A stretch of DNA of 64,000 nucleotides from Sphingomonas vulcanisoli (GTDB lineage Bacteria > Pseudomonadota > Alphaproteobacteria > Sphingomonadales > Sphingomonadaceae): NCBI RefSeq assembly GCF_011761305.1, contig NZ_JAAOZC010000001.1:248001-312000 (forward strand), read 5' to 3'. The translations under genes and the position numbers were made by a program. Shown in pieces: positions 13,916 through 39,477 of the stretch. Every line of letters starts with the position of its first letter. Position 1 is the first letter of the stretch. The notes under the pieces are model-generated. The model was not told the origin of the DNA. It made no database searches and saw nothing but the letters and a program-made list of their open reading frames with translations.

Positions 13916-13927
13916 CCAGCGGATTCG

Positions 13928-15946: not shown

Positions 15947-16010
15947 ACGCGCGCGATCATCGGCTCAGCGACTATCATTCCGCTCCCAAGGGGGGCGAGG
16001 GAGGATCATC

Positions 16011-22875: not shown

Positions 22876-24624
22876 TTAGCCCGGCAAGGCAAGCGGGCGG
22901 GCCTTCGATGCGCGGAGCCATTGCGAGACGTCCGCCGTCAGAAGTTCCGCCGTCCGTGCGACAAGGCGGCGGAGGCCGTCGAAGGACGCGGCCTCGTCGA
23001 TCGCGATCCGACGGACTTGGGCGAGGCGTTCGGCGAGTATTTCATTGCGTTCGACGACGCCCGCGAAATCACCCTGCATGCGGATGCCATAGATTGCGGC
23101 GCCGATCGCGGGCAGCGCCGCGCTGATTACGGTGACACCGAGCGGCAGGCGGTGCGCCAGGCCAGCCATCCGATCCGGCAGCAGCGCGCCCAATCCCTCG
23201 ATCAGCAGGACCGCGATGCACAGCAGCGCCGTGACCGCAAAGAGGACGGCGCCCAACCGGTGTAGCCGGTGCTCGAGACGATGCATGCGCGCCGCTTCGC
23301 GGCCGAGATAGGCCATTTGATCGTCCAGCAGATCGATGAAGCGCGCATAGGTCGCCGCGAGATAGGCGGTATCGACCCGCGCCGACGGAAGGCCAAGTCT
23401 GCGGGCGATCATGATCGTGCCCGCGCGCGCACTTTCCCCTGCCACGCCATGCAACAGCAAATCCCCCAGCCTGGCAGAAAGCGCCAGACAGCGGAGCTGC
23501 TCGGCAAGCTGCCGCCGGTCGAGCCAGAGCTGATGCCAGCCCGCGCGGGACGCAGTGTGCGTGATCGTCAGGATACTCGCGATCGCGGTGAATTCCCCCA
23601 GCACCAGCAGCGGCTTAAGATGGACCGGTATCAGCAGACCGAGCAGCGACAGGATCACCGCTAGCGCGGCCAGCGCGAAATTGCTCACGAAGGCACCGCG
23701 GAATTGCTGCGCAGCATGCGTGGCCGCACAATCCGCCTCATCGAAATAGGGTAGCAGCGTGTGATTGATCCGGGCATCGATTGATCCCGGGTCCGCTATA
23801 GATGCGGGGCGCGGCGGTGGCTTCGGCTTCCTGAAGTCTGCGGCGCGCGGGCGTCGCACGCCGGCGGCTGCCAGCAGCAGAGGATAAGCCAGCGCGTAGG
23901 CCCGCCGCCCCGCTTCCAACCATCCGCGCCTGCTGTGATCGGGGGGAGGTGCTTCGGCGAGCATGATTGTCGAGAAAAGCCGGGGCAGATCCTGAACGGT
24001 ACCGCGCGCGACCGTTTCCACCGATTCCGGCCCAAGCTCGTGCGCATTGAGGCCCCGCCACAACAATTGCGGAGGCCGGGGACTTTCAGGATCGAGCACC
24101 AACACGGGAATGCTCGTTGCGATCGCCTCCTCAATGATCTGGGCCGTGCCGCCGCGGCCGCGAACGGGTTCGCCATCCCAGATCGCCAGCAGCAGATCAC
24201 TTTGCGCGAGGACGATGCGGCCGGCGCGCTCATAGGCGCTGGACGACCCGCCGGACTCGTCGCGGGCGCCGGGAAGTTCGAATACGTCCGTGGAGACAGC
24301 GAGGAGTCGGTGCAGTTTCGCCGCCTCGGCCTGATCGAAATCGCGCTCATAGATTTCGCGCGCGAACGGCAGCACGGTATCGACCTGCCATCCGCGCGCC
24401 AAGGCCACATCGGCCATGATGGTGTCGGCGCCCTCCGCCAGACTTCCTACGAGACGAAAACATGCCCCGTGTGCCGCGCGTTCTATCGCAACCAGCACGC
24501 CGTCGACCTGCGCCGCGAGGACGCTTTGGTCGATCGTGCCGAGGCGCTCCGCCCTGTGCCCGGTAACGCCGACGGCGATCGGCGCCGGAACATTGGCCGG
24601 TACGTCGCTCACGCTGTTCGGCAT
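22876..24624 (-). CDS. SLOG-like nucleotide-sensing protein with C-terminal membrane segments
   Basis: About 582 residues. The N-terminus has the Rossmann-like pattern APIAVGVTGHRAERLG, then LVGSLAEGADTIMADVAL, LPFAREIYERDF and SDLLLAIWDGEPVRGRGGT. These are the hallmarks of SLOG/TIR-like domains that bind nucleotide signals or NAD derivatives. The C-terminal half has two pairs of membrane segments (about residues 305-360 and 450-510), resembling SLATT-type effector regions. The ATG at 24624 has GGAGGG upstream; a GTG at 24663 lacks one. It is divergent from a TIR gene 86 bp away. Family assignment is from motifs and context only, with no enzymatic residues proven. Confidence 0.65.
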   Translation of the reverse strand: MPNSVSDVPANVPAPIAVGVTGHRAERLGTIDQSVLAAQVDGVLVAIERAAHGACFRLVGSLAEGADTIMADVALARGWQVDTVLPFAREIYERDFDQAEAAKLHRLLAVSTDVFELPGARDESGGSSSAYERAGRIVLAQSDLLLAIWDGEPVRGRGGTAQIIEEAIATSIPVLVLDPESPRPPQLLWRGLNAHELGPESVETVARGTVQDLPRLFSTIMLAEAPPPDHSRRGWLEAGRRAYALAYPLLLAAAGVRRPRAADFRKPKPPPRPASIADPGSIDARINHTLLPYFDEADCAATHAAQQFRGAFVSNFALAALAVILSLLGLLIPVHLKPLLVLGEFTAIASILTITHTASRAGWHQLWLDRRQLAEQLRCLALSARLGDLLLHGVAGESARAGTIMIARRLGLPSARVDTAYLAATYARFIDLLDDQMAYLGREAARMHRLEHRLHRLGAVLFAVTALLCIAVLLIEGLGALLPDRMAGLAHRLPLGVTVISAALPAIGAAIYGIRMQGDFAGVVERNEILAERLAQVRRIAIDEAASFDGLRRLVARTAELLTADVSQWLRASKARPLALPG

Positions 24625-24710
24625 TCTGCGTCCATCCGGCCCTCCCTCGCGGTTCCTTAGCACTTGTCTGACGCCGTGCTATAGCAAGCGGCGGGCGGCA
24701 CCGGGTGGGC

Positions 24711-26609
24711 ATGGGCGATATCTTCATTTCCTATAAGGCGGAGGATCGCGCACGGGTCCGCCCGCTCGTCGATGTGCTGATCGCCGATGGCTTTTCGGTC
24801 TGGTGGGATGCGCAGATCGAGGGTGGCGCATCGTGGCGTCAATCCATTCAGGAGAGGCTCGATAGTGCAAAGTGCGTGATCGTCGTCTGGAGCGAACGGT
24901 CGGTCACGGCTGCCGGCCACTTCGTCCATGATGAGGCCAGCCGGGCCCAGCGGCGCGGACTCTATCTGCCGGTGCGGATCGATCCGGTAGAGCCCCCGAT
25001 CGGCTTCGGGGAAGCCCAGGCGATAGACCTTATTCGTTGGAAGGGTGGTCGCGCCGATCCGCGATACCAGCATATCGCCGACTGCGTTCGGACCATGATC
25101 GAGAACGGACCACGGGCCGCGGCGCTCCTTCCTCTGGGCTATGCGCGCCATCCATCGCGGCGCATACTGATCATGGGCGGTGGTGCGGCGACGTTTGCCG
25201 CTGCCGCGGCCGCGGGCGGCTGGGTCTGGTATCGGAGAGGAGCGGCACCTTCGTCCAACAGTATCGCTGTCCTGCCTTTTGAAAATCTCAGCGGGGATCC
25301 AGCTCAGACCTATTTTTCCGACGGCATCTCGGAAGAATTGCGCGATACTCTGACCTCTATTCCGAGCCTGCGGGTCGTCGCGCGTACCTCGTCGGACATG
25401 TTTCGCAATAGCCGGGACGCCGCGACGATCGCCGCCCGCCTGGGTGTGGCCTATGTTCTCGATGGCAGCGTCAGGCGGGGCGCCGATCTCATCCGCATCA
25501 GCGCACAAATGACCGAAGCCGCCACCGGCATTGAGCGATGGTCGCAATCCTATGACCGTGCACCCGGCGATGCTTTGTCGATTCAAAGTGACATCGCCAA
25601 CCGGGTTGCGGAAGCGTTGCAGATTGCGCTTGGAACGGCCGGTGCGGCGAAACTGGAGACTGGCGGCACGCGCAACCCCCAGGCGCATGACGCCTATCTC
25701 AAGGGCGTGCAGTTGCTCGATCAGGTCGGCGCAGAGGCGGACTACCGCGTTGCGATCGCGCAGTTCGACCAGGCGATCGCCGTCGATCCGAGCTATGCGC
25801 GGGCCTATGCCGCACGCGCGCAGGCCATAGCGCGAATGGCGAGCAGCTTCAGCAGCGCGGCAGCCGCCACCGCTCAATATGCTGATGCACAAGCTTCGGC
25901 GCGGCACGCGATCAGCCTGGCGCCTGACCTTGCCCAGGCACATCTCGCCGCCGGTTATGTGCAGGTCACGCAGCTCCATGTCGCGGCGGCGCAGCCCTAT
26001 TACGAACGCGCCTATGCGCTCGGCGCGGGAGATAGCGGCATCCTGTCGGTATATGCTGCCTTTATGTCCCGGATCGGTCGCGACGCGGCTGCCGTCGCGG
26101 CCGCCGAACGCGCAGTGTCGCTCGATCCGCTCAATCCGCTTGCCTTCGCTCTGAAGGCCGCGGCTTTGGGCGGGGCAGGGCGTTTTCCTGAATCGCTTGC
26201 CGCTTACCGCGCCGCCTTGAAGCTGAACCCGCAGGCCAGTTTTCTTCACGGCAATTCCGGAACGATCCTTTATCTGATCGGCAAAACCGACGAAGCGGCG
26301 CAGGAATTCGCGCAGGAGCCTGTCGGCTGGGCGCGCGCGACGGGGGAAGGGATCGTCGCCGCACGCAGAAAGGACGGCGCGGCGCTCACGCGCGCACTGG
26401 ATTTCCTCAAAACCGACGGCGGGGACGATTTTCAGATCGCAGAGGTGCTGGCGCAAAGCGGCGACCATCCCGGGGCGCTCGACGCGCTGGAACGCGCATG
26501 GGTGGCGCGCGACGGCGGTCTGGTTTCTCTCAGGGCCGATCCGTTGCTTGTGCCGCTGCGTTCGGACCCGCGCTATCAGCGCCTGCTCAGCAAGCTGGGC
26601 TTTGCTTGA
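24711..26609 (+). CDS. TIR-domain membrane protein with TolB/FlgO-like domain and TPR repeats
   Basis: About 632 residues. Residues 1-130 are a TIR domain (GDIFISYKAEDRARV, FSVWWDAQIEGGASW, VIVVWSERSV) with the conserved Glu75 in VHDEAS at the NADase catalytic position. A hydrophobic segment (about 146-168) follows, then a domain of about 120 residues like the FlgO/TolB-N module found in class III cyclase-TPR proteins (IAVLPFENLSGDPAQTYFSD, GVAYVLDGSVRRG). TPR repeats fill the remainder. The ATG at 24711 is preferred to a GTG at 24705. Its topology would put TIR in the cytosol and TPRs in the periplasm. It may signal envelope state or act in defence; neither is shown. Confidence 0.85.
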   Translation: MGDIFISYKAEDRARVRPLVDVLIADGFSVWWDAQIEGGASWRQSIQERLDSAKCVIVVWSERSVTAAGHFVHDEASRAQRRGLYLPVRIDPVEPPIGFGEAQAIDLIRWKGGRADPRYQHIADCVRTMIENGPRAAALLPLGYARHPSRRILIMGGGAATFAAAAAAGGWVWYRRGAAPSSNSIAVLPFENLSGDPAQTYFSDGISEELRDTLTSIPSLRVVARTSSDMFRNSRDAATIAARLGVAYVLDGSVRRGADLIRISAQMTEAATGIERWSQSYDRAPGDALSIQSDIANRVAEALQIALGTAGAAKLETGGTRNPQAHDAYLKGVQLLDQVGAEADYRVAIAQFDQAIAVDPSYARAYAARAQAIARMASSFSSAAAATAQYADAQASARHAISLAPDLAQAHLAAGYVQVTQLHVAAAQPYYERAYALGAGDSGILSVYAAFMSRIGRDAAAVAAAERAVSLDPLNPLAFALKAAALGGAGRFPESLAAYRAALKLNPQASFLHGNSGTILYLIGKTDEAAQEFAQEPVGWARATGEGIVAARRKDGAALTRALDFLKTDGGDDFQIAEVLAQSGDHPGALDALERAWVARDGGLVSLRADPLLVPLRSDPRYQRLLSKLGFA

Positions 26610-26681: not shown

Positions 26682-26885
26682 ATGAAAATGCGCATCATCA
26701 TCGCCGCTGCTCTCGGAGCAACGCTCGCCTTAGGCGGCTGCAGCAAGACCGAGAACACCAACGTGTCGGTCAACGAGACCACGCTGACGGGTGACAATTT
26801 GTCCGATACAAACGACCTTGCGGGCAATGTCGATAATATGAGCGATGGCGGCGATTCCCAGAAGAACGATCCGACCCATCCCTAA
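26682..26885 (+). CDS. Small Asn/Asp-rich lipoprotein
   Basis: 67 residues. A lipoprotein signal (IIIAAALGATLALGGC, Cys near residue 17) is followed by a short, Asn-, Thr- and Asp-rich tail (NVSVNETTLTGDNLSDTNDL) without any fold I recognise. The start at the ATG of 26682 is chosen because the signal begins there; the frame is open upstream. It lies 72 bp after the TIR gene on the same strand, so it could be cotranscribed. Confidence 0.7.
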   Translation: MKMRIIIAAALGATLALGGCSKTENTNVSVNETTLTGDNLSDTNDLAGNVDNMSDGGDSQKNDPTHP

Positions 26886-26928: not shown

Positions 26929-27831
26929 TTATTGCTTCTTTACCGCGGCGCGGAGCGCGTCGATCTGCTTGAACGTCGCCTCGGCCAGGGCGTCGCTGGT
27001 GGTCACCGTATGCGCGCCGGGCTGAACGTCGGCGGCGCAGAGCGGATGGAAATTGACCGTTCCCTTGTTGGGAAGCGGCACCGCGACCAGCCAGTCGGGA
27101 TCGGCAACGGTTGTTCGCACCGTAACCTTGAAGGCGCCGGAAACCAGATCGATCCGGAGCGTCCGGCAGGCTGAGGTGAGGATCGCGCCGTGCACGCTGG
27201 TGCGCGCGCTGCGCGGCAGGAAACCACTGGCCGCGGGATCGTCGAGGAATTCCGCCGAATAAGTCCAATCGGGATTGTTCGGCACGGTGGGCGGCGCAGG
27301 CGGGGCCTTGACGTCTTTCAGATCGATCACGATCGGCAGATTGAGCGCCAGGGCATCGGTGCTGGTGCCCTGCGTCTCGCCAGCCGCGAGTTTGGCGGCG
27401 CCCACGGCGATCGCGCCGATCGTGTTGATCGCCTCCAGGCGATGATCCCTGACCTCTACGTCGAGGGACTTGAGCCGCAGCGAGTTGTCGAAATAGGACG
27501 GCGTTATGCTGGTTTCGACGAAATGACGCGAGATTGGCTCGATCGCGAAAATCGCGCCGCTGAACGGAATCGGGCTTCCCAGCGCACCGACGCGGACCGA
27601 GCCATTTTCATCGCGGCATCTCCCGCCGAGCTTGCATTGGATCGTCGTGGGAGCAAGATCGACCGGTGTCTTGTCGCTGGCGATGCCGATCGCGATGCTC
27701 GTGTCGGTCAGCTGATAGGGGATCCATTTGTCGCTGCGCGGCCGATCGCTGAGTAGATGATAGTTTACCTGAGGCGTGACGGCGCACCCGGCGAGCAGCA
27801 AGCTGAAGCTCAGGATCGCGCAGCGTTTCAT
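26929..27831 (-). CDS. Lipoprotein of unknown function, last gene of caspase/protease operon
   Basis: About 300 residues. The lipobox LLAGC (Cys15) follows a short Lys/Arg start, so it is an envelope lipoprotein. The mature part is beta-rich (PSYFDNSLRLKSLDVEVRDH, AFKVTVRTTVADPDWLVAVP) and has four further Cys residues, likely paired. I recognise no domain. The ATG at 27831 overlaps the stop of the protease gene upstream by 4 bp, so translation is coupled. It may anchor or be the substrate or inhibitor of the proteases encoded with it; that is inference. Confidence 0.72.
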   Translation of the reverse strand: MKRCAILSFSLLLAGCAVTPQVNYHLLSDRPRSDKWIPYQLTDTSIAIGIASDKTPVDLAPTTIQCKLGGRCRDENGSVRVGALGSPIPFSGAIFAIEPISRHFVETSITPSYFDNSLRLKSLDVEVRDHRLEAINTIGAIAVGAAKLAAGETQGTSTDALALNLPIVIDLKDVKAPPAPPTVPNNPDWTYSAEFLDDPAASGFLPRSARTSVHGAILTSACRTLRIDLVSGAFKVTVRTTVADPDWLVAVPLPNKGTVNFHPLCAADVQPGAHTVTTSDALAEATFKQIDALRAAVKKQ

Positions 27832-28784
27832 GACTTCGCCCGAAACTTGGCGATCTGCTCGTTGATCCATCCCTGGAAGGCGGGGACGTACGTGAAATAG
27901 GTGGGATGTCCGGGCAGACCGCAGCCCTTCGCCCAGCTCACCAGCCCGATCAGCTGAAACTCCTTGGGTTTGGGGCCATAATCGCGCTGGCGCACCAGCG
28001 GGCCGCCGCTATCGCCTTGGCACGTGGCGGTCTGGGTTCCGTTGACGACATCGCCCACCGCGCAAATATCGACCCCCATCCCCTTGGCATCGGTTAAACA
28101 GGCCAACGGCGCGACGATATGCAGTGTCTCAGCAATCTGCAGATCGGGAATGAAGACGAACTGGCTGGATTGAGCCTTGCCTTCCGGACGCGCCGCGATG
28201 CTGCCCCAGCCCGTCGCCGCAACCTGATCCCCAACCTTGAGCGGTTTGGGTGAATTTTCGGGGAGGATTTCGATCCGTTTCATCGGGCCCGGGTTGGCAG
28301 CCTGCCGCGCCTCTGGATCGGGAACGATCTGAAGAAGCGCGATATCGTTACGCCAATGGTCTTTCTGGCCTTTGTAATCGGGATGCCGCACATAATCCTT
28401 GATCAGAAACACTCGACCGACGCCGCCGCTGACACTGCGCCCTTGGAGAGTCTGGGTGCTGGTAAGGATGCGGAAGCCTTTCATGTCCTCCGGGCTTTCG
28501 TCCTCGATGCAGTGCGCTCCGGTCACGACGATGTCCGGCGCGATCAGCGCGCCACCGCATTGATGTTGTCTGGACCAGAGCGGATGCCCGGCGAGCTGCT
28601 CGGGAGTCCACTTGTCATAGACGTTGAACATCTCGACCTGCCACGGCACCGTCCCCGGCTCCGCAGTATGGCCGCCGACGATCCGGCCATTGCCGTCTTC
28701 CGCCTGTTGCGATGGCGCTGGCGGATCGGCGCGGGCCGCGCTTAGCGAGAGTGCGGCGCAGCAGAGGAGGCGTAGGTGGCGCAT
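27828..28784 (-). CDS. Exported chymotrypsin-fold serine protease (S1 family)
   Basis: 318 residues with a signal peptide (about 1-19). The S1 fold is complete: zymogen junction GR34-IVGG, catalytic His91 (VVTGAHC), Asp147 (RNDIALL) and Ser259 (CQGDSGGP), with six or more Cys for disulfides. The residue corresponding to chymotrypsin position 189 is Ala253, not Asp, so it should not have trypsin-like Arg/Lys preference. The start ATG at 28784 begins the signal peptide; an earlier start would put an extra 23 residues before it. It overlaps the caspase gene by 43 bp and the lipoprotein by 4 bp. Confidence 0.9.
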   Translation of the reverse strand: MRHLRLLCCAALSLSAARADPPAPSQQAEDGNGRIVGGHTAEPGTVPWQVEMFNVYDKWTPEQLAGHPLWSRQHQCGGALIAPDIVVTGAHCIEDESPEDMKGFRILTSTQTLQGRSVSGGVGRVFLIKDYVRHPDYKGQKDHWRNDIALLQIVPDPEARQAANPGPMKRIEILPENSPKPLKVGDQVAATGWGSIAARPEGKAQSSQFVFIPDLQIAETLHIVAPLACLTDAKGMGVDICAVGDVVNGTQTATCQGDSGGPLVRQRDYGPKPKEFQLIGLVSWAKGCGLPGHPTYFTYVPAFQGWINEQIAKFRAKS

Positions 28785-30760
28785 GGCGACGGCGGCTCCG
28801 GCAAGGGGCGGCTGGAATCGACAACACGCAACGTGACGAGGGTAGCGCCCCAATCGCCGACCTGGGGAGTATCGACGGCGCGGGTGCCATTTTCCGCCGC
28901 CTGCAGCAGCTTTGCAAGCGGATTGAGATCGCGCGAGAGCCCCTCCTGCGCGAGCATGCTCATGTCGATCGGCCGGGGTGTCGCAATCAGCAGGAGGTGC
29001 GCGCGGCCTGGGAGACCGGCGGTGCCGGCGAAGGATACGTCCTTCTTTGCGGGCAGCAGATCATTCGCGCCGCCGGGCTGGAACGGGGTGACTGAATAAC
29101 GGTCGGGTTCGAGATCGAAGAGGTAGACATATTGGTCCTGCGCGGTCTCGTTCGTGGCGGTGACGCGGAAGCGCTCGCCGGTGTGGAACTGCGGCTCGCC
29201 GTCGTCGGTCGGCAGGTCCGCACAAGCGATGTCGGCGCGATCATCGCAGTTGCGCGTAACGGCAAGGCTTACGCGCTTCGGCCCCTCATCATTGCGCAGC
29301 GCCAGCATCGATTGGAAGCGTGCAATAATCTGCGCCGCGGTCGCCATGCGATCGGCGAACAACGGATCGGCCGAGCTGCCCAGCGCCTCGAGAAAGCGCC
29401 CGTCGCTGTCGCACAGCGCCACCTGGCCGTTCGTGCTGGCGACGATCAGATCAGCATGGTCGCTCGCCGGCTTCATCAGGCCGCCGGAGCCCTCAAGCGC
29501 CTTCGTGGCGATGCGAGCCGCCCTGGGATCATCGAGGCGGAGGAGTACGCCCAGCCCATCGGCGCCGTACCGGTGCTGCAGTTCGCGCAGCGCCACCACG
29601 GCGGGCAGGCGTTTGGCGAGATCGCCGGTGACATCGAGCAAGGCGGTCTCGGCGTCGATCGAGGTAACGGCGCCTCGGCCAAGCGGTGTGCCTGCGGCTA
29701 CGGCGCTGGTGGTATCCGCATAAATCGCGAAGACCGAACCGACGCTGACACCCGACAACAGCCCGCCATCGATTCTGGTCTGCCGCGCGGAGATCCGCGT
29801 ACCGGCGTAGATGCGTGTCGTTCCCGGATCGCTGCCGAGGAATGTGGCGAGCAGCGCGCCTTCCGCTTGCGGGTGCTGCTTCGCATTGGCGCGATCATCG
29901 AGCGCGAGCTGCGTGGCGCGGGCGAGATCGCCGTAGGTCGCCGCCGGACGCCGCGCGATCTGCGCCGCGAGCGCCAGCGTAAAGGCACCGTGCCAAGTCT
30001 TGCCATAAAGATATTCGTGCGCAGTCTCGCTATCCTTGGCGGCGGCCAGGTGGACGCGATAGGCGCGTCCGTCGGCGACGACCACGTCATTGGCGTCCAT
30101 TTGCGCCAGTGCATTGCCGAGCGAGGCGCGCACCGCCGGATCGATCGCGGCAGGAGGGCCGGGCGGCACCGCGCGCGAATTCCCCTGCGCGAGTGCGCGC
30201 GTGGCGGTGCCGGAATGGCAGGAATCGAAGATCGTGACGACGCTCACGCCCTTCTTGGACGCCGCCGCGATGATCGCCCGCAATTCGGTGTCGAGGATAT
30301 CGGGGTCGCCGCCCAGCTTGCGCGAGTCGTAGGCCAGAATCGTGTCGGATCGTCCGCCGGCCTTGGTGCCGCTCTGATCCAGATAGGTCGATCCGTGCCC
30401 GGCATAATAGAAAAGCACGATATCGCCGCTACGCGCGCGGCAAATCTGGCCGGTAAGCGCGCCGAGGATCGCGGTGCGCGTCGCCTGCGCATCGACGAGC
30501 GTGATCGCCGTCCGGCTGGGGCCGGGGCAGCGCGGGTCCGCCGGTTCCACCCGGCCCTCGACATCGAGCCCGACGGCCTTGTGCAGCGTCGTCTTGATCA
30601 GCGCGACGTCGCTCACGGGGCCTTGCAGATCCTTGAACTCGGCGGTTTCGAGGCCGGAATATTGGTAGTGGTCGATGCCCACGAACAGCATCCGTACGGT
30701 CCGCGCTTTGGCGAAGGTCGGTGCCAGCACGAGCAGCAAGAGTGCCAATATCCGGCTCAT
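28742..30760 (-). CDS. Exported caspase-family (C14) protease with DUF4384-like C-terminus
   Basis: 672 residues with a signal peptide (SRILALLLLVLAPTFAKA). Residues about 22-270 are a caspase p20-type domain with catalytic His122 (YYAGHGS) and Cys181 (FDSCHSG). Around residues 540-640 is a DUF4384-like beta domain (HTGERFRVTATNETAQDQYV, YLFDLEPDRYSVTPF). Export signals are found in some bacterial caspase homologues, so the enzyme should act in the periplasm or at the surface. Metacaspase/orthocaspase relatives cut after Arg or Lys. It overlaps the WD40-caspase gene by 4 bp and the S1 protease gene by 43 bp, indicating one transcript. Confidence 0.88.
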   Translation of the reverse strand: MSRILALLLLVLAPTFAKARTVRMLFVGIDHYQYSGLETAEFKDLQGPVSDVALIKTTLHKAVGLDVEGRVEPADPRCPGPSRTAITLVDAQATRTAILGALTGQICRARSGDIVLFYYAGHGSTYLDQSGTKAGGRSDTILAYDSRKLGGDPDILDTELRAIIAAASKKGVSVVTIFDSCHSGTATRALAQGNSRAVPPGPPAAIDPAVRASLGNALAQMDANDVVVADGRAYRVHLAAAKDSETAHEYLYGKTWHGAFTLALAAQIARRPAATYGDLARATQLALDDRANAKQHPQAEGALLATFLGSDPGTTRIYAGTRISARQTRIDGGLLSGVSVGSVFAIYADTTSAVAAGTPLGRGAVTSIDAETALLDVTGDLAKRLPAVVALRELQHRYGADGLGVLLRLDDPRAARIATKALEGSGGLMKPASDHADLIVASTNGQVALCDSDGRFLEALGSSADPLFADRMATAAQIIARFQSMLALRNDEGPKRVSLAVTRNCDDRADIACADLPTDDGEPQFHTGERFRVTATNETAQDQYVYLFDLEPDRYSVTPFQPGGANDLLPAKKDVSFAGTAGLPGRAHLLLIATPRPIDMSMLAQEGLSRDLNPLAKLLQAAENGTRAVDTPQVGDWGATLVTLRVVDSSRPLPEPPSPCATYASSAAPHSR

Positions 30761-33700
30761 TTCGGCTTGGCCGCGGCGCGTACCGTGACAGGGCTGGTGC
30801 TATCGGTGAAGTCGAACAGCTGCGGCTTCTGGACGTTATGGCGCGGTGCGTTCTCACCATCAAAAATGATCGTGCGCGCCGCCAGCATCGCCGGCTTGTC
30901 AGGCTTGGGGCGCGAAAGTTCGGGCAACCGAAGCTCCGCGTAATGCAGCAGTTCGTCGAGCCTGATGCGACCGTCGCCATCCAGATCGGCGAGACCCTTG
31001 GCGAGGCCGTCTTCGACCAGCGCATAGGTGAGCAGGCCATGCCGCAGCGTCGCGCTCTCCATGGCAACGCCGTCGCCCTGGCTGGCGGCCAGGATGCGGA
31101 TGCCTTTGTCGAATGCGAGCTGACCGAGGCCGGGATCGCCGATCGGCGCGGGTTTGAAGTCGCCATTGTCGACGCTGGCCGCCGAATGGCAGGCATCGAC
31201 TACGAACGCCATTTCGCCGGCGTTCACCCCGCGCAGCCAATCGGTCAGTTCGGCGCTGGAGATGAGCGAGGCGGGATCGGGAGCACCGTCTTCGGCGCGG
31301 CGTCCGTCTGCCGGCACCAGGAAAAAGTTGCGATCGGCATCGGTATCGCCATGCCCCGAGAAGGTGAGGATGACAGCGTCGTCCGGCGTGGCCTTACCGA
31401 TCCCGCTCACGTCGATGCCCTTGGCCTTTAGCCGGGAGCGCCCCTTTTCATCGCCCGCAAGCAGGCCGATCACCGCCTGAATATCGGCTTTGGTTGCCTG
31501 GTCGTGGAGCGCGTCGGCAAGCAGGGTGACGGGGACGATCGTATAATCGCTGATCGTGCCGAGTGAAGCGGTCAGCGCCTTGGCATCGCCGGCCGCAAAC
31601 TGCAGCCGCCAGTCCTTTTCGCGGTAGGCATCGATTCCGATCGCGATGACGAAGGCGCGCCGGGGGTGAGGTTTCAAAGGTGGCAGCGCCACGCTCGTGC
31701 GCACGCGGTCGCCCGTCACGCGATCGTCGTTGAACGCATAAGCGGAGAATTCGACCTTTTGCGTTCCGGTCGGGACGGGCACCTCGGCCGTCTGCAGGAA
31801 ACTGCGCGCGCCGCCCGCCTTGACCAGCACGCTATGCGCCCGCCAGGCGACGAGATCGCGCGATTGTGACGGGGCCGGCCATTCGCCGACGAGATGCCCA
31901 TCGCGGAACAGGCGTAAATCGTAGGCGCCGGAATGGGTGCGGTGATTGGCCGCTGCGGGATCGGACTGTTCGGTGACGGTCATCCGGACACGCGCCGCGC
32001 CGTGGTCGGTCAGGGCGACCTCATCGATGCTCACGCGCGGCCGCAGGCGGTTGAGCGTCTCGAGGGGCGGTAGCGGCTTGAAGCTGGGACAATCGCCCGT
32101 CGGCAGCGCGCAATCGATCAGCCGCGTGGCAAGGCGCGGCTCGAAATAATCGCGCATGAAGGTTTGGGGCGCGAGCAGGGTGAAGGGCGCATCGGGCATG
32201 ACCCAACCGATCGCCGAAGTTTCGGCCGGCAGGTTGGTCTCGTAACGCCCGTCCGGCGCCGCGGCGATGAAGCGCCGATCCGCGAAAGTATAGAGCGTGA
32301 AGAGTTCGCGCTGGTTTTTCGATGACCAGAAACGGACAACACCGTTGCTGCCCGCCGCCCAAAGGATCGGCTTCTTTTCGACGAAGCCAACCGCGGCGAC
32401 CTCGATCGATGGCATGTCGAGGCTGGGCAATGCCGTACCGTCAAGCTTGTGGAGCGCGATCCCGGATTCCGATCGCGCGGCATCGGCGACCAGACCCTGC
32501 GGCGAAGCGGCGAGATGATCGACCGTATTCGGATGTGTCGACAGCGTGCGGAGCTGCTGGAAGGTCTCCATATCCCAGGCGATGACCAGGTTGCCCTGCG
32601 CGGCCAGCAGTTGCCGTCCATCCGCGCTGAAGGTGATGGCATAGCCGAGGCCTGCCTTGTCGCCGAGCGTCGCCTTCAGATCGCCGGTCGCCGTGTCCCA
32701 CAGCAGCAATTTCCGCCAACGCGCACCGCCGTCACCGTAACCGACGCCGAGCTGCGCGATGGTGCCGCCGTCGGGCGAGAGCGCGTAACCTTCCATCCCG
32801 CTGGCGGCAGCACCCTGCTCGCCGAAATGGCTGACCGCCTGCTTCTTGCCGGCGTCATAAAGCGTAAAGCTTTTGCCATATTTGCCTTCGCGCGCGAAAT
32901 AGCGGTTCTGGCCGATAGGGCGGATGTCGCCGACGGGCATCGTCTCGATAATCGTGCCGCTGCGCACATCGAGGATCGCGGCCTCGCCACGGGTCGTCAC
33001 CGCCAGCCGATCCTCGCCGATCCAACGGATACTGGCGCAACCGCAATCATTGTCGAAGTCTATCCCAGGCAGGAAACGGCCCTGTTCTGCATCCCAGACC
33101 TCGATGCGTGTGGCGCTCGGTGCGGAATGATCGGGGGATTCGCCTTTGCCGAACTGCTCTTCCAGCATCGCCACCAATTGCCCATCGGCGGACACGGCGG
33201 CGTCGAGAAGCTTGATCGGCACCGTGGGTGCAAGCGCCATGGCCGGCGTCTTGCCATCGGCTGCAGCGATCTCAATGCCACTGTCCGTGGTGCGCGCGAT
33301 ACGCCTTCCATCGGGGCTGGGGACTGCAAGCGCGCTAATCCCTGGGCCACCGCCTGGATTGGACAAGGGAAATTCGGTCCCGCGCTCCGGGAAAGATGTC
33401 TCCGCCAGGCCTAGCGCCGCGCCGGTGGCACTATCCCCGAGCCGGAGTGCCGATCGCTCCGCCTGAGGATGTTGGGGGTCGTAGGGCTTGATTTCATCGA
33501 AGGTGACGCGCGCGCCGTCCGGGCTCACCGAGAAGGATTGCCCCGCGACATCTGTCGGCAAGAGCGGCGGCAGGGAGAATATCCGCTCGGCCTGTCCCGG
33601 CTTGTAGACATGAACCACCCGCTTGTTGTCGAGCAGCCAGGCGGTGTCGTCCGTGGTCCAGCTGATCGCAACGATCCGTCTTATGTCCGGGATAGCTCCG

Positions 33701-34368
33701 GGCGCAGAATGCCCCTCACTATCGATGACGTGCAGCGGGCAAATATCGAAGGCATTGCAACCCAATATCGTCCAACGGCCATCCGGCGAGCGTGCCGCCA
33801 GCGAGGGATGATCCAGCGTCAGCAGCGGCGGTTCGGCGGCGTCATTTTCGATGGGCAGCCAGGAGAGCGGCACCGGCGGATAGGAATCGTCCTCCCTCCG
33901 CGACGCCGATCCCAGCAGCAGGAGCTTGCGGCTGTCCGTGGACCAGAACAGCGCCGAGGCGGGCACGTCGCGCAAAACTCGGCGCGTGGCGATGTCCCAA
34001 ATGACGGTTTCGTGCTGCATGCCGAAATCGAAGTCGATCGTGCTGGCGAAGCGCTTGCCGTCCGGCGAAACGATGATCCGCGCGATGTTGAACGACTGCT
34101 CACTGTCCAGGCTGTGCGGTACGCGCGATCGATCGAGAGGCATGATATCGCGGGAGAGCAGGTGCCCGGAGACTGCATCCCAGACCAGGATCGCCAGATC
34201 GGTGCCGCCCGTAAGAAGCAGCCTCCCGTCCGGGCTCCACGCTGCGGCTGTTACCGATCCGTCATGTCCTGTTTGCAGGACCAATTTCGGCTGAAGATCG
34301 GCCGCGAAGACACGTGCGTTGCACACGACAAGAAAAAGAAAGAGTGCCGCGGCCAAAGGGCGTATCAT
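30757..34368 (-). CDS. Exported WD40-repeat caspase with EF-hand-like loop
   Basis: 1203 residues beginning with a signal peptide (RPLAAALFLFLVVCNARVFA). About 25-720 is a WD40 beta-propeller region (HDGSVTAAAWSPDGRLLLTG and similar repeats). A linker with immunoglobulin-like strands follows, then a C-terminal caspase domain from about residue 905 (RRAFVIAIGIDAYRE), catalytic His in LTFSGHGD and Cys1060 in VVDACHSA. Residues 1128-1139 (DLDGDGRIRLDE) match a 12-residue EF-hand calcium loop. The ATG at 34368 starts the signal; a TTG at 34416 is less likely. It is the first gene of the operon running to 26929. Propellers commonly dock partners or sense ligands. Confidence 0.87.
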   Translation of the reverse strand: MIRPLAAALFLFLVVCNARVFAADLQPKLVLQTGHDGSVTAAAWSPDGRLLLTGGTDLAILVWDAVSGHLLSRDIMPLDRSRVPHSLDSEQSFNIARIIVSPDGKRFASTIDFDFGMQHETVIWDIATRRVLRDVPASALFWSTDSRKLLLLGSASRREDDSYPPVPLSWLPIENDAAEPPLLTLDHPSLAARSPDGRWTILGCNAFDICPLHVIDSEGHSAPGAIPDIRRIVAISWTTDDTAWLLDNKRVVHVYKPGQAERIFSLPPLLPTDVAGQSFSVSPDGARVTFDEIKPYDPQHPQAERSALRLGDSATGAALGLAETSFPERGTEFPLSNPGGGPGISALAVPSPDGRRIARTTDSGIEIAAADGKTPAMALAPTVPIKLLDAAVSADGQLVAMLEEQFGKGESPDHSAPSATRIEVWDAEQGRFLPGIDFDNDCGCASIRWIGEDRLAVTTRGEAAILDVRSGTIIETMPVGDIRPIGQNRYFAREGKYGKSFTLYDAGKKQAVSHFGEQGAAASGMEGYALSPDGGTIAQLGVGYGDGGARWRKLLLWDTATGDLKATLGDKAGLGYAITFSADGRQLLAAQGNLVIAWDMETFQQLRTLSTHPNTVDHLAASPQGLVADAARSESGIALHKLDGTALPSLDMPSIEVAAVGFVEKKPILWAAGSNGVVRFWSSKNQRELFTLYTFADRRFIAAAPDGRYETNLPAETSAIGWVMPDAPFTLLAPQTFMRDYFEPRLATRLIDCALPTGDCPSFKPLPPLETLNRLRPRVSIDEVALTDHGAARVRMTVTEQSDPAAANHRTHSGAYDLRLFRDGHLVGEWPAPSQSRDLVAWRAHSVLVKAGGARSFLQTAEVPVPTGTQKVEFSAYAFNDDRVTGDRVRTSVALPPLKPHPRRAFVIAIGIDAYREKDWRLQFAAGDAKALTASLGTISDYTIVPVTLLADALHDQATKADIQAVIGLLAGDEKGRSRLKAKGIDVSGIGKATPDDAVILTFSGHGDTDADRNFFLVPADGRRAEDGAPDPASLISSAELTDWLRGVNAGEMAFVVDACHSAASVDNGDFKPAPIGDPGLGQLAFDKGIRILAASQGDGVAMESATLRHGLLTYALVEDGLAKGLADLDGDGRIRLDELLHYAELRLPELSRPKPDKPAMLAARTIIFDGENAPRHNVQKPQLFDFTDSTSPVTVRAAAKPK

Positions 34369-34453: not shown

Positions 34454-35377
34454 TCAATGTCTTGCGGAGCGCGGCCCGTGATAGTCGGCGAAATAGCCGA
34501 TCAAGCCATAGTCTTCAGTGGCCCGGCTGTAGCCGCCGGTCATCTGCGCATAGTAATGTGCCGGCGAAAATCGGAATTCCGCCTCGCGGGCAACGGGAAC
34601 GATTTTCAGGTTCGCATCCGGCATGATGATATGCGCAAAGCGGATCGCACCTCCCATTACCGTAATGTAAGGCCGACTGGCTTTATCGGAATATGCTGAA
34701 GCGTCGTTGCGGCCCATCGTCACGACAATCCCGTTATCGGCAACGTGAACCGCGGTGAGCTTGCCGTAGAGCTGCGGGGCAGGAAACATTCCGGACACGG
34801 GGATGATCAGGGAATCGCCGTCGATCCGCAGCACGTTTGGATCGTGGGATTTGATCAGGGCGGCCGTGCCGAGGCCAATCCTGTCGAGAAATCCTTTGGA
34901 AAAGACACCCGCCGCTTTCATGCGGATTATGCGCAGCCGCAAATCGCCCCGGGGCGTAACCTCCGGCACGGATACGGCAGTGAAACCAAGCGGCAATCCG
35001 ATCTTGTGGAGCTTGCCCTTGATCAGGATTGTGTTGCCGGCGAACGAAATGCGCGCATCCGTTATGCCCGCGCCGGACGCCGGCACGACGTGGCGGTTTA
35101 TCAGCGCTGCCATGGTCGCGGCTGGCACGACGACGCGGCACTTGGTGATTTGGATGCCATAGGAATTCACATCGTTGAGATCGATGATCTTTCCTGGCTT
35201 GGCCGCGACCAATGTGCCTTCGAGATCGTCGATCTGGGAACTTGCATCATCGAATTGAAATAGCCGGATGTGCCGCATCGAGATATGCGGAGCGGCCCGG
35301 TGTGGCGCGGCGGCCGGCACAGATGCCGCCAGCGAAAGCGCCACGATGGCTTCGCATCCGAGGCGCCCGAGACTCAC
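34454..35377 (-). CDS. Secreted protein of unknown function, last gene of type III PKS operon
   Basis: 307 residues with an N-terminal signal-like segment (EAIVALSLAASVPAAAP). The mature part is beta-rich with repeating hydrophobic strands (DARISFAGNTILIKGKLHKI, SLIIPVSGMFPAPQLYG). It resembles LmeA/DUF2993-type lipid-binding proteins in style, but I cannot confirm membership. Its start overlaps the stop of the FAD oxidoreductase gene by 4 bp, tying it to the PKS operon. It could carry or receive a lipid product outside the cytoplasm; inference only. Confidence 0.65.
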   Translation of the reverse strand: MSLGRLGCEAIVALSLAASVPAAAPHRAAPHISMRHIRLFQFDDASSQIDDLEGTLVAAKPGKIIDLNDVNSYGIQITKCRVVVPAATMAALINRHVVPASGAGITDARISFAGNTILIKGKLHKIGLPLGFTAVSVPEVTPRGDLRLRIIRMKAAGVFSKGFLDRIGLGTAALIKSHDPNVLRIDGDSLIIPVSGMFPAPQLYGKLTAVHVADNGIVVTMGRNDASAYSDKASRPYITVMGGAIRFAHIIMPDANLKIVPVAREAEFRFSPAHYYAQMTGGYSRATEDYGLIGYFADYHGPRSARH

Positions 35378-36459
35378 TGCGGCACGCGGGTCAACTTGGC
35401 GAGGTGACCCGCCATGGCAGGGTAGAGGCTGAGCATGGCCCAGACCGCGTTACGCGACCAATCCTGCTTCCCGGCGCGCTGAAGCAGCATAGCGAGCCGG
35501 ACCCGGTTGCCGAATTCTTTGCGGACGGCGGTGGCATGATCCCGTGACGTTCCGCCTGCGGAAACCATCGCCGCTCCCATGACCGCGCTGCGCAGCGCAA
35601 TCGCCATGCCCTCACCGCAAAAGGATGGGATGACCGTTCCTTGATCGCCAAGCCTGAAGAAGCCGTCGAGTGCATCTCCTGCGTGGAGAAAGCCGTAGGG
35701 TACGCCGGCGATCGCAAGGGGCTTCGGCGATAGCGGGACGGCGTCACCCAGCAGCGCCTCAAGGTGCGGTTCGAGCAGAAGGCGTGCGAGCAACTGCTCC
35801 CAAGTCCCGCCAACGCTCGCCAGCTGGCGCTTGCCGATCAGTAAGCAGAGATTGGCCTTGCGGTCTTCGACCAACTGGAGCCCCGCATAGCCGCCCTCGA
35901 AGAGGATAACGACGATCAGGCCCTCAAGCTCTGCGCCGGCGGACGGCGAAAGCTGCCAATACGTCTTGAAGCCCACATAGCCAATCTCGCAGCCGCCGGT
36001 ATCGCGCGCCGCGCCCCGAACCTCATGCTTTCCGCTGGCGAGCATCAGCACCGCCGGGCGCAGACTTCCGGCGGCCGTCTCAACACAGGTCGAGCGTATT
36101 TCCCGCGCCGCCGTACCGCGTTCGATGGTGGCGCCCGCCGCCGCCGCCCTATCGAGCAATGCCGCGTCCAACCGCTTGCGCGTGATCCCGCGCGCGATGA
36201 AAGGCAGCGGCGCTTCGATGGTGTGGCGCCCGTTGACGAGGCGCAGCGTGGTGATCGCGGACGCGCCGAGGTAATCCAGATCAACGCCCAGCCTCGCGAG
36301 GGTCTGTTGCGGGCCCTCGGAAAGAAATTCGCCACAGATCTTGTGCGCCGGTTGGCTGTCCCGCTCCAGCAAGCGGACATGACGCCCGGCCCGCGCCAGC
36401 AAGGTGGCGGCAGCTCCCCCGGCAAGACCGCCGCCGACAATGACGACATCATCCGTCAT
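35374..36459 (-). CDS. FAD-dependent oxidoreductase of type III PKS operon
   Basis: 361 residues. The N-terminal dinucleotide fold is VVIVGGGLAGGAAATLLARA, followed by HKICGEFLS, as in geranylgeranyl-reductase-like and aromatic-ring monooxygenase enzymes. The second FAD motif is near DGFFRLGDQGTVIPSFCGEG. It probably hydroxylates, reduces or oxidises the polyketide product. It is coupled to the methyltransferase upstream (ATGA, 36456-36459) and to the secreted protein downstream. The substrate is not determinable. Confidence 0.87.
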   Translation of the reverse strand: MTDDVVIVGGGLAGGAAATLLARAGRHVRLLERDSQPAHKICGEFLSEGPQQTLARLGVDLDYLGASAITTLRLVNGRHTIEAPLPFIARGITRKRLDAALLDRAAAAGATIERGTAAREIRSTCVETAAGSLRPAVLMLASGKHEVRGAARDTGGCEIGYVGFKTYWQLSPSAGAELEGLIVVILFEGGYAGLQLVEDRKANLCLLIGKRQLASVGGTWEQLLARLLLEPHLEALLGDAVPLSPKPLAIAGVPYGFLHAGDALDGFFRLGDQGTVIPSFCGEGMAIALRSAVMGAAMVSAGGTSRDHATAVRKEFGNRVRLAMLLQRAGKQDWSRNAVWAMLSLYPAMAGHLAKLTRVPQ

Positions 36460-37163
36460 TTCAGCCGCTCAAGGCACCAGCGAAAAGGAAGGCGCCAGCG
36501 CAGTCTCACCGCCTGGCTGGGAAGCCCGGCCGAGGCGATCAGGCGCGTCCAATCGGCCTGCGTGAAACTTCGAGCGACGGATAGAGCGCCGTCATGCCGC
36601 ACGATCGGGTGCCAGCGAGCCAAAGCCGCCAGCGCGCGAAAGCCATGATAAGCGATCGGGTGGCGGTGAAGATCGTTGATGAACCATCCGCGCAGGGCGC
36701 GACCGTCCATCCAGCGGAGGAACGCGACAATCTCGGCGTCGGTCATATGATGGGTAACCAGCGAGCTAATGATCAGATCGATCGGCTGCGCTGGGTCCAG
36801 GGAGAAGGCATCGCCGGTGATATAGTCGATCGGCATGTCCGCCGGTGTGCGGGCGCGTGCGGCGGGGGCACTTCGGGGGTTGATGTCGTAGCCCATTAGA
36901 TGCACCGATGGACGGTGTTTGAGGCTGCGTGCCAGCGCACGGAGCATGTCGCCGTCGCCGAAGCCGACGTCGAGGATCGTGATCGGGGTATCGATCGGCA
37001 CATTCCGCAACGCGCGTTGCACGAACCGGAGCGTAGGCGGTCGCGCGCGCGTCACGCCGTTCACCCGCGCCAGATCGGCAAGCACGGCCGCGAATGTCTC
37101 GGCTGAGAGATCATCGCCGTCCATCTGTTCGGGTTCCGTCGAGCGTGCGGCGAGCGAGGTCAT
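36456..37163 (-). CDS. SAM-dependent methyltransferase of type III PKS operon
   Basis: 235 residues of class I methyltransferase type. The SAM-binding motif I is ITILDVGFGDGDMLRAL, with the acidic MGYDINPRS next and LIISSLVTHHM as motif IV. The ATG at 37163 is chosen because it overlaps the PKS stop; a longer in-frame extension only shadows the PKS gene. It probably methylates a hydroxyl or ring carbon of the PKS product. The neighbours on both sides overlap by 4 bp. Confidence 0.87.
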   Translation of the reverse strand: MTSLAARSTEPEQMDGDDLSAETFAAVLADLARVNGVTRARPPTLRFVQRALRNVPIDTPITILDVGFGDGDMLRALARSLKHRPSVHLMGYDINPRSAPAARARTPADMPIDYITGDAFSLDPAQPIDLIISSLVTHHMTDAEIVAFLRWMDGRALRGWFINDLHRHPIAYHGFRALAALARWHPIVRHDGALSVARSFTQADWTRLIASAGLPSQAVRLRWRLPFRWCLERLK

Positions 37164-38260
37164 CGCTTGGCAAGCCGCGTGAAGCGAAAGCTCTCTGCAG
37201 CCAGCCCTGGCCCGAACGCAATTGCGAAACCCGCTCTCTCTACCACATCGGCCTTTTCGATCATGGCGGCCAAGACGAACATCAACGTCGCCGAAGACAT
37301 GTTGCCGAAGTTTCGCAATATCTCGCGCGACCAATCGAGCGCTTGCGGGGCGAGCCCGAAGCCCTGTTCGACCGCATCCAGGATCGATCTTCCCCCGGCA
37401 TGAACTGCCCACAAGCCATAGTCCGCCGGCTTGCGACCACGCAGCAGTCCTTCGACCGCGCCGTCGAAGATCTCGGCGGCCAGCGCACGGCCGATGTGGC
37501 CCGGCACCTCGCCGCCCAGATGCATATCGAAGCCCTGGTCGCCGATCTGCCACGTGATCGATCCCGCGGTGTCGGCGATCGTCGCGGCGCGGAAATCTTG
37601 AAGTGCGATGCCATGCGGCTCGGCGGTGACGATCGCGGCTGCACAGCCGTCTCCGAACAGCAGCATCGACAGCATGCGTTCGAGATCGGGCGTGCGCTGA
37701 AAGTGCAGCGAACAAAGCTCGATATTGACGACAAGCACACGGGCGAGGGGGGTTGAGCGGACGATATGGTGCGCGAGACGAAGCGCGTTGACGGCCGCGT
37801 AACAGCCCATGAACCCTACCAGCGTTCGCTCGACGCCGGGATTGAGGCCAATATCCGTGACGATGATCTGATCGAGCCCGGGCGCCACGAAGCCGGTGCA
37901 GGAGGCGACGACAAGGTGGGTTATGCCTTTGATCTCGGCCTCATCCATCCGCAACGCACCGATCGCCTCGGCGGCGAGCTGCGGCGCCCAGCGTGCGTAG
38001 CGCGCCATCCGCGCGGCGGTGCTAGGCCACTCGCCGAGCCCGTAGAAGCCCTCGCTGTCCGTAACCTGGCCATCGGGGAGCAGCACCGGCTCGAGAAAGG
38101 AAAAGCGGCGATCGATGCCGGCACGGGCGACCATGCGCAGGAAAACCTGGCGGCGCTTGTCATCGGTTATGGTGCCCGCAACGAAACGCACAAACGCCTC
38201 ATGCACCTCGTGCGGCGGAACGGCCGTAGCGATGCGGTTGATATGCGCGACCGCCGTCAT
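37160..38260 (-). CDS. Type III polyketide synthase (chalcone synthase-like)
   Basis: 366 residues with the complete chalcone-synthase catalytic triad: Cys153 (VGFMGCYAAV), His287 (WAVHAGGRSIL) and Asn320 (NFGNMSSA). The conserved CTGFVAPG loop is at 121-128. Type III PKSs load an acyl starter, extend it with malonyl-CoA and cyclise it to resorcinols, pyrones or phloroglucinols. The adjacent ketosynthase and ACP suggest the starter is an acyl-ACP made or handled in the operon. Length is typical. Overlaps of 4 bp on both sides indicate coupled translation. Confidence 0.94.
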   Translation of the reverse strand: MTAVAHINRIATAVPPHEVHEAFVRFVAGTITDDKRRQVFLRMVARAGIDRRFSFLEPVLLPDGQVTDSEGFYGLGEWPSTAARMARYARWAPQLAAEAIGALRMDEAEIKGITHLVVASCTGFVAPGLDQIIVTDIGLNPGVERTLVGFMGCYAAVNALRLAHHIVRSTPLARVLVVNIELCSLHFQRTPDLERMLSMLLFGDGCAAAIVTAEPHGIALQDFRAATIADTAGSITWQIGDQGFDMHLGGEVPGHIGRALAAEIFDGAVEGLLRGRKPADYGLWAVHAGGRSILDAVEQGFGLAPQALDWSREILRNFGNMSSATLMFVLAAMIEKADVVERAGFAIAFGPGLAAESFRFTRLAKR

Positions 38261-39477
38261 GCCCGGCGGCCGATCAACACGGCGTTGAGGCCGCCGAAGG
38301 CGAAGCTGTTCGAGACAAGATGATCATAAGCGATATCCGAGCGCGCGAGGGCCAGCGGAATATCGCAGGCGGGATCATCCCCGACATGGTTGAGGATAGC
38401 CGGCGCGCGCCCAGCCTGAAGCGCTTTCAGGCCGAGCAGAAACTCCAGCGCGCCCGATCCGCCGATCAGGTGACCGTGCGCGGATTTGGTGGCGATCACC
38501 AGACTTTCGGACAGCGCATCGCCATAGACCGCGCGAATCGCCGCAGCCTCGGTCGCGTCATTAAGGCGGGTGCCGGTGCCATGGCTGGAGATCAGCACCG
38601 GCACGTCGAGTGGGAGCCCGGCATCGGCGTGCGCCGCGCGAATGGCCGCCTCTATGCCAGTCTGATCGGGCATGGTGATATGCGCGGCATCGCTGGTCGC
38701 GCCGTACCCGATCAATTCGCCGTGGATTGTGGCTCCGCGCGCGACCGCATGATCCCACGCTTCGAGCACCAGGATCGCCGCACCCTCGCCGAGTACCATC
38801 CCCTGCCGGTCGATCGAGAAGGGCCGGCAGGTGTCGGTCGCCAAGGCGCCGAGGGATGACCATGCGACCCACGAGCCCAAGGTCAGGCACGCCTCGGTGC
38901 CGCCGGCGATCACCACATCGGCGCGGCCGGCACGGATCATGTGCATGGCTTCGCCGAGCGCGTGGGCGGAAGAGGCGCAGGCGCTGGCGATGGTTAGGGC
39001 AGGGCCGTGGATGCCGAACAGCATCGCCAATTGGCTCGCCGGCGCCGATATCATCGCGGTCGGGATCGTCTGCGGGTGCACCTTAGTCTGCCCACGCTCG
39101 TAAAGCCGCCGGTACGCGCCGTCGAAGGTCTCGTTTCCGCCGCTGCCGCAGCCGATCAGAATGGCGGTGCGCCGGTTCAGGACGGGATCGCCGATCAGCC
39201 CGGCATCTTCGATGGCCTCGGTCGCCGCCACGAGAGCGAATCGCGTCAGCGGATCGATCTGGCCAACGGCGCGGCGATCGAAATGCACCGCCAGCCCGGA
39301 TTGGTCCAGTTCTCTGATCGGCGCAGCTGGGCCCGAAAGACGAGGCTCGCCATCGCGCGGCAAGGCGAAAGCGGTGATCGCGCCGTGGCCTTCGATGGTG
39401 CGTGACCAGTTCGCCGCCAGGCCCTGGCCGAGGCCGCTCACGCACCCCATCCCGGTGACGGCGACCCGGATGGTCAA
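38257..39477 (-). CDS. Beta-ketoacyl-ACP synthase (FabF-like)
   Basis: 406 residues of the FabF/KAS II type. Catalytic residues are Cys167 (IASACASSAH), His299 (SSHGTGTRLND) and His336 (KSAHGHLIGGSGA). The N-terminus VAVTGMGCVSGLGQ is typical. Such dedicated ketosynthases condense an acyl group with malonyl-ACP; next to a lone ACP and a type III PKS it likely prepares or extends an acyl starter. It overlaps both the ACP gene (39474-39477) and the PKS gene by 4 bp. Confidence 0.93.
   Translation of the reverse strand: MTIRVAVTGMGCVSGLGQGLAANWSRTIEGHGAITAFALPRDGEPRLSGPAAPIRELDQSGLAVHFDRRAVGQIDPLTRFALVAATEAIEDAGLIGDPVLNRRTAILIGCGSGGNETFDGAYRRLYERGQTKVHPQTIPTAMISAPASQLAMLFGIHGPALTIASACASSAHALGEAMHMIRAGRADVVIAGGTEACLTLGSWVAWSSLGALATDTCRPFSIDRQGMVLGEGAAILVLEAWDHAVARGATIHGELIGYGATSDAAHITMPDQTGIEAAIRAAHADAGLPLDVPVLISSHGTGTRLNDATEAAAIRAVYGDALSESLVIATKSAHGHLIGGSGALEFLLGLKALQAGRAPAILNHVGDDPACDIPLALARSDIAYDHLVSNSFAFGGLNAVLIGRRA

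Follow-up and report, generated by a model that had tools for sequence, protein, structure and literature searches.

Exported caspases and a trypsin-like zymogen encoded beside a TIR-SLOG gene pair in Sphingomonas vulcanisoli: a candidate envelope-spanning pathway

In a 64,000-nucleotide stretch of the Sphingomonas vulcanisoli genome (contig NZ_JAAOZC010000001.1, positions 248,001 to 312,000; the whole stretch is called the window below, and its source genome comprises 3.27 Mb in 17 contigs), four minus-strand genes follow one another in the same orientation and encode two caspase homologues with export signals (A and B), a trypsin-like S1 protease (C) and a lipoprotein (D). Beside them stand genes for a TIR protein with a predicted membrane helix and tetratricopeptide repeats (TPRs), for a small lipoprotein and for a protein joining a SLOG domain to a membrane region (Table 1). 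We propose an envelope-spanning system, in which an extracytoplasmic caspase-to-trypsin cascade would act on the transmembrane TIR protein and this in turn, through a nucleotide switch, on a SLOG membrane effector; we would accept or reject this proposal with about equal readiness. Outside the inner membrane, the WD40-caspase A and caspase B would be the initiators, cutting the zymogen C after an Arg (R/IVGG), and active C would process the small lipoprotein, the TPR half of the TIR protein on the periplasmic side, or both. Processing would turn on the cytoplasmic TIR domain, giving an ADP-ribose-type signal from NAD+, and the signal would bind the SLOG domain of the SLOG-membrane protein, leading to perturbation of the inner membrane and to growth arrest or death. 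The proposal is built from features of sequence, namely gene anatomy, predicted export and helix signals, active-site conservation, a zymogen motif, a predicted SLOG fold and the co-conservation of the parts; from these we infer the location of the proteins, the order of cleavage, the substrate of C and the direction of the signal, as well as TIR activity, signal molecule, membrane output, trigger and purpose. Either phage attack at the envelope or envelope stress would suit as a trigger.

A first-pass annotation had described positions 26929-34368 as an operon whose genes overlap by 4, 43 and 4 bp and whose four products carry export signals and should be made together. The gene coordinates agree with these overlaps (the first two were recomputed), which support co-production by translational coupling as far as sequence can, and by our heuristic A, B and C start with signal-peptide-like segments and D with a lipobox. 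The system reaches beyond this interval, taking in the TIR and SLOG genes and a small lipoprotein gene at 26682-26885 that the annotation lacked.

The caspase dyads and S1 triad had been called intact, and the motifs are present and are kept across relatives. B matches PF00656 at aa 25-303 (E 6e-14), and A combines WD40 stretches with a caspase domain at aa 908-1118 that scores 21.8 bits, barely above the cut-off of 21.4. The active-site motifs are SGHG and DACHS in A and AGHG and DSCHS in B, and the catalytic His and Cys are kept in 20/20 A and 13/13 B sequences; with PF00656 above cut-off and a His-Cys dyad, both proteins fall within peptidase C14. PADLOC matched A and B to generic caspase models only, and their scores against the EACC1-associated caspase model NF047832 (40.3 and 29.3 bits, curated cut-off 140) place them outside that group. 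Tandem double A genes occur in loci L070, L075, L076, L077 and L004 (L and G numbers denote compared loci and genomes).

A hydropathy and motif heuristic (not SignalP) called a signal peptide in 18/20 A, 13/13 B and 13/13 C proteins; among start codons up to about 140 residues upstream of the homology it chooses the one with the strongest signal, which favours a positive call. No signal peptide was called by it for A of L075b and L008. A lipobox takes the place of the signal peptide in A of L073 and L074 and in B of L073, as it does by eye in C of L073 (LAGC), and such exchange among relatives fits export. WD40 partners and possible signal peptides had already been noted for bacterial metacaspases and orthocaspases, and action on neighbours was suggested there for caspase homologues with N-terminal helices (PMC3501461, accessible part). 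One could envision on this ground that the proteases are released from the cell, with competitors or neighbours as their targets, and that TIR and SLOG serve for self-recognition or self-protection; however, the lipobox forms of A and B suggest retention in the envelope, and we consider this explanation highly improbable.

C matches PF00089 over aa 35-307 (E 3e-34) and carries the motifs GAHC, NDIAL and GDSGG; the S1 triad is kept in all 13 C proteins and in 18/18 S1 proteins of other loci. Pfam match, triad and N-terminal activation site together assign C to trypsin family S1, and a search of S1 against the PDB gave no match at E<=1e-20, the sole cut-off used. In 13/13 C proteins an Arg stands immediately N-terminal to the Ile or Val that begins the S1 domain. 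Because orthocaspase cleavage follows basic residues (PMC6426788, accessible part), the simplest reading of this sequence feature is that C is a zymogen cut by a caspase at the Arg, the alternative being autoactivation. This reading predicts that A or B cleaves C at Arg34.

Translational coupling, shared sequence and a gene fusion all argue that B and C belong together. S1 proteins of loci without A or B are mostly longer than C, and the C-terminal half of B (13 sequences) aligns by hhalign with the N-terminal regions of 10 of these longer proteins at 99.3% (E 1e-20), whereas two control sets made from other S1 N-termini (of 2 and 3 sequences) reached 0.1%. In G443, a genome of another family, S1, caspase and DUF4384 are fused in one protein (L168:9823-12516), which by eye has a signal peptide. 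The periplasmic proteolytic cascade that had first been suggested is thus supported in sequence as a relay, through the Arg activation site of C, the B-C domain sharing and the fusion. The gene upstream of the fusion overlaps it by 4 bp; the product of that gene lacks Pfam matches and has, by eye, a signal peptide. L140 holds a second, looser pairing of caspase and S1 that is not of the A-B-C type: a caspase with Sel1 repeats, exported by eye (7147-9147), is divergent from an S1 gene (9244-10245).

The order and strand of A-B-C are identical in 13/13 distinct loci (nine family genomes and the four further named loci L003, L004, L008 and L009), with a 4-bp overlap of A and B in 11/13 and of B and C in 9/13. 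The proposed quartet did not survive the gene-neighbourhood comparison: D adjoins C in only three of the 13 loci (the window, L070 and L008; L003, whose stretch ends 0.4 kb past C, is uninformative), which rules out A-B-C-D as a unit. D has no Pfam match; its lipobox (LAGC in the window) is found in 3/3 D proteins, and its fold prediction, made from a two-sequence alignment with a mean pLDDT of 29.8, is of no use. Relatives of A occur in 10/249 family genomes including its own (E<=1e-20) and relatives of B in 9/249 (E<=1e-50), with C adjoining B in all nine; the tenth A genome, G232 (L078), shows A but neither B nor C, its contig ending about 2.4 kb further on. Eight named relatives of A belong to Sphingomonadales or to unplaced Alphaproteobacteria. 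Four genus mates gave no match to A, C, D or SLOG, one weak match to B and three weak matches to the TIR protein; this absence and the small number of family genomes with A make the spread of the gene set patchy. In a class-wide set of 230 genomes, A was found in its own genome only (E<=1e-20) and C in five (E<=1e-8). Three of these five belong to other families; of the three, L166 and L167 show S1 alone by profile search and L168 the fusion. Mantel congruence among A, B and C is high (r 0.76-0.96), but shared ancestry alone would produce such congruence and we do not use it as proof. In L072, two transposase-like ORFs (15692-16878, by eye) lie close to the A-B-C locus on the side of A.

The tie between the proteases and the TIR and SLOG genes, which the annotation had mentioned as neighbours, rests on their recurrence with C far above chance. 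C relatives occur in 31/249 family genomes. Within 15 kb of C, 21 of these have a TIR relative and 19 have one of SLOG; 17 genomes have both there and 23 at least one. The expectation is 0.32 for TIR and 0.26 for SLOG under uniform placement, which leaves the clustering of accessory genes out of account. These counts take the best C row per genome (second matches of G002 and G218 were left out), 48 TIR rows that span the TIR domain with E up to 4e-48 (weaker or TIR-less rows excluded) and 57 SLOG rows from 56/61 genomes (G010, G140, G142, G200 and G206 excluded as partial or weak). Among the 13 A-B-C loci, chosen by A and B alone, profiles or BLAST found TIR in 10, SLOG in 7 (that of L077 counted from the overlapping stretch L138) and either in 11. 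Sixteen further loci (L122-L137) hold S1, TIR and SLOG in 12 cases, S1 and TIR in three and S1 and SLOG in one, which is description rather than a test because they were chosen for having C near TIR or SLOG.

Among 32 TIR genes, and taking an S1 profile match anywhere in the same locus as S1, a small lipoprotein gene on the same strand starts <=350 nt after the TIR gene in 17 of the 22 whose locus holds S1 and in one of the 10 whose locus does not (Fisher p 6e-4; 0.7% at random positions). A small lipoprotein seen next to the TIR gene of L073 escaped the strict pattern and does not enter the count. By eye, these lipoproteins are rich in Ala, Glu and Asp. The same data bear on a more ordinary explanation, that A, B and C are exported quality-control or nutrient proteases and that TIR and SLOG lie nearby merely because accessory genes cluster. 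TIR-SLOG pairs existing alone, C genomes with neither gene and the restriction of A to so few genomes would suit it; however, the frequency of TIR (21/31) and SLOG (19/31) near C against about 0.3 expected, and a TIR-adjacent lipoprotein that tracks S1, speak against it, and we regard it as unlikely.

The TIR protein (PF13676, E 1e-20) has C-terminal TPRs, a faint CadC match in its C-terminal part (17 bits) and no signal peptide, and its conserved Glu (DEA) is present in 23/23 sequences; we take this residue to have a role in NADase activity. In 23/29 TIR rows of S1 loci, one paralogue being counted twice where L077 and L138 overlap, the TIR domain is followed by a hydrophobic helix poor in charges; in loci without S1 the figure is 10/27. 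The six exceptions are L076, which is cut by the locus end, that same paralogue twice, two TIR proteins of L140 and the different TIR protein of L070. PADLOC matched the TIR protein with models that contain TIR and gave no match for the SLOG protein of the window. Helix-bearing TIR genes in L177, L178, L179 and L080, without S1, share the same 20 kb with a different, larger caspase gene.

A model of the SLOG-membrane protein (mean pLDDT 61, about 70 across most of the domain) supports a Rossmann-like SLOG fold (Foldseek E 2e-4). It resembles YpsA most closely (Z 17.7, rmsd 2.5 over 159 residues), followed by DprA (Z 13.2) and LOG (Z 10.6) and, at lower scores, TRPM channels and ThsA (Z 8.4). 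Three helices lie above threshold in the window protein and 2-5 in the 15 proteins examined; a DUF4231 match reaches 16.7 bits, below its cut-off of 24.7. Beside the SLOG gene of L126 lies a gene for a small membrane protein (13913-14380) with ion-channel domain PF07885 (tested in L126 only), and similar-looking ORFs occur in L125, L127, L129 and L132.

Besides the limit on the uniform-placement expectation, several observations weigh against the envelope-spanning pathway. Eight of the 31 C genomes (G001, G038, G072, G077, G173, G231, G232 and G240) show no TIR or SLOG gene at 15 kb or less from C; L074, an A-B-C locus, has a TolB-TPR protein without TIR (the other such locus with neither TIR nor SLOG is L003, whose stretch ends just past C), and L070 has a different TIR-TPR protein (574-2487) without a helix. 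The trypsin specificity position of C, which we take to be Asp189, is Asp in 11/13 C proteins, Ala in the window and Gly in L008, so that C of the window may not autoactivate or cut after Arg or Lys. The SLATT_1 match of the SLOG protein, at 23.1 bits, is below the cut-off of 41. TIR matches occur in 17/25 SLOG-anchored loci without S1 (L146-L165 and L169-L173), often of the type without a helix, and the 10 helix-bearing TIR proteins in loci without S1 add to these; the proteases are therefore not required for every TIR-SLOG pair. Since TIR and SLOG also pair without S1, they look like a wider core to which the proteases are an addition in one group. As a separate observation, a protein with TPR-S and guanylate-cyclase domains is encoded near A-B-C-D in L070 (3604-5340).

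The order of events could also be the reverse. Thoeris TIR products activate SIR2, TM-macro and caspase-like effectors, and the effector switched on in this way in type IV Thoeris is a caspase-like protease by which proteins of the cell are degraded (PMC12847820, accessible part). TIR-started signalling might likewise release a caspase-trypsin cascade outside the membrane, where it would digest envelope proteins of the same cell as an executioner arm comparable to that of type IV but on the opposite membrane side. Caspases and S1 proteases would be apt executioners, and the co-conservation of TIR and SLOG with C fits equally, but a cytoplasmic nucleotide signal would need a further link to reach exported proteases, and SLOG, which normally reads signals of this kind, is carried by a different protein of the locus; we think this direction unlikely.

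Set beside known systems, the locus shares single features with each. As in Thoeris type I (TIR ThsB, SIR2-SLOG ThsA), a TIR gene is paired with a SLOG protein whose model resembles ThsA, YpsA more so; here, in contrast, the SLOG domain is joined to a membrane region in a protein in which no SIR2 was found, a membrane helix and TPRs form part of the TIR protein, and exported proteases are added. Thoeris type IV, in the accessible descriptions, likewise has TIR and caspase-type proteases in one locus, to which the present one adds an S1 zymogen, a SLOG protein and lipoproteins; because A and B carry export signals by our heuristic, nucleotide signal and protease are predicted on opposite membrane sides, unlike in type IV. 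The accessible parts of two papers of the Aravind group on TIR/SLOG-SLATT conflict systems (PMC9503650, PMC7159879) describe TIR beside a SLATT-like membrane protein, predicted to be an effector that responds to ADP-ribose (ADPr) or its derivatives, and name trypsin and caspase as effectors of other conflict systems; an exported caspase-S1 relay and a helix-anchored TIR-TPR protein are not among the features described there. Defence proteases that activate partner proenzymes are known (PMC12799240, accessible part), and the canu caspase-nuclease and nuclease-trypsin pairs of that source resemble our scheme in that a protease is predicted to activate its partner; here the partner is a protease rather than an MBL nuclease, the proteins are exported, and A-D, the TIR and SLOG proteins and the small lipoprotein gave no Pfam match to a nuclease, which places the locus outside canu. 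Bacterial metacaspases and orthocaspases share the His-Cys dyad, WD40 or DUF4384 partners and possible signal peptides (PMC3501461, PMC6426788), and a tie to S1, TIR and SLOG is not among the features described in the accessible parts. The literature covered, which included few subscription papers and was accessible in part, does not describe exported caspases with an S1 protease, TIR and SLOG, and the TIR-based bacterial immune systems that it presents sense and act inside the cell. If true, the envelope-spanning pathway would show a route from envelope events to TIR signalling and an extracytoplasmic role for caspase homologues.

In the insect Toll pathway, a cascade of S1 zymogens outside the cell acts through a small secreted protein on a single-pass receptor with a cytoplasmic TIR domain. 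The predicted layout of the present locus resembles this one, and one may ask, tentatively and with more doubt than belief, whether the locus encodes a Toll-like bacterial pathway of extracytoplasmic initiator proteases and S1 zymogen, a small secreted lipoprotein as target, a single-pass TIR receptor and a nucleotide-gated SLOG membrane effector. It differs in that caspases would act outside and the SLOG protein would provide the output; the initiator caspases would stand outside the cytoplasm, the reverse of their placement in animal cells. Homology is claimed for the S1 and TIR domains only.

Table 1. Genes and sites of the candidate system, in positions of the window
Feature	Position	Strand	Length, parts and basis
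A, exported WD40-caspase	30757..34368	-	1203 aa; caspase domain about 31015-31647; Pfam
B, exported caspase	28742..30760	-	672 aa; caspase about 29852-30688; C-terminal half, accessory domain
C, exported trypsin-like S1 zymogen	27828..28784	-	318 aa; Pfam, triad
Predicted activation site of C, R/IVGG (codons Arg34-Ile35)	28680..28685	-	Arg conservation
D, lipoprotein, accessory	26929..27831	-	300 aa; lipobox; 3/13 loci
Small lipoprotein	26682..26885	+	67 aa; directly 3' of TIR gene
TIR-TM-TPR protein (TM, membrane helix)	24705..26609	+	634 aa; TIR about 24720-25040
TIR-TM-TPR protein, parts	helix about 25164-25220; TPRs C-terminal	+	Pfam, helix scan
SLOG-membrane protein	22876..24663	-	595 aa; SLOG about 24073-24585; hydrophobic helices in C-terminal half

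Upstream of A by 85 bp, on the minus strand (34454-39477), translations read by eye suggest ketoacyl-synthase-like, type III polyketide-synthase-like, methyltransferase-like and FAD-oxidoreductase-like genes and a secreted protein, possibly a resorcinol-lipid-type cluster; these were rejected as part of the system, since relatives of the five (N1-N5) are absent from the compared loci (BLAST E<=1e-3). On the other side, beside the SLOG gene, the plus strand (19047-22860) carries what by eye are genes for a xanthine-dehydrogenase-type molybdenum hydroxylase.

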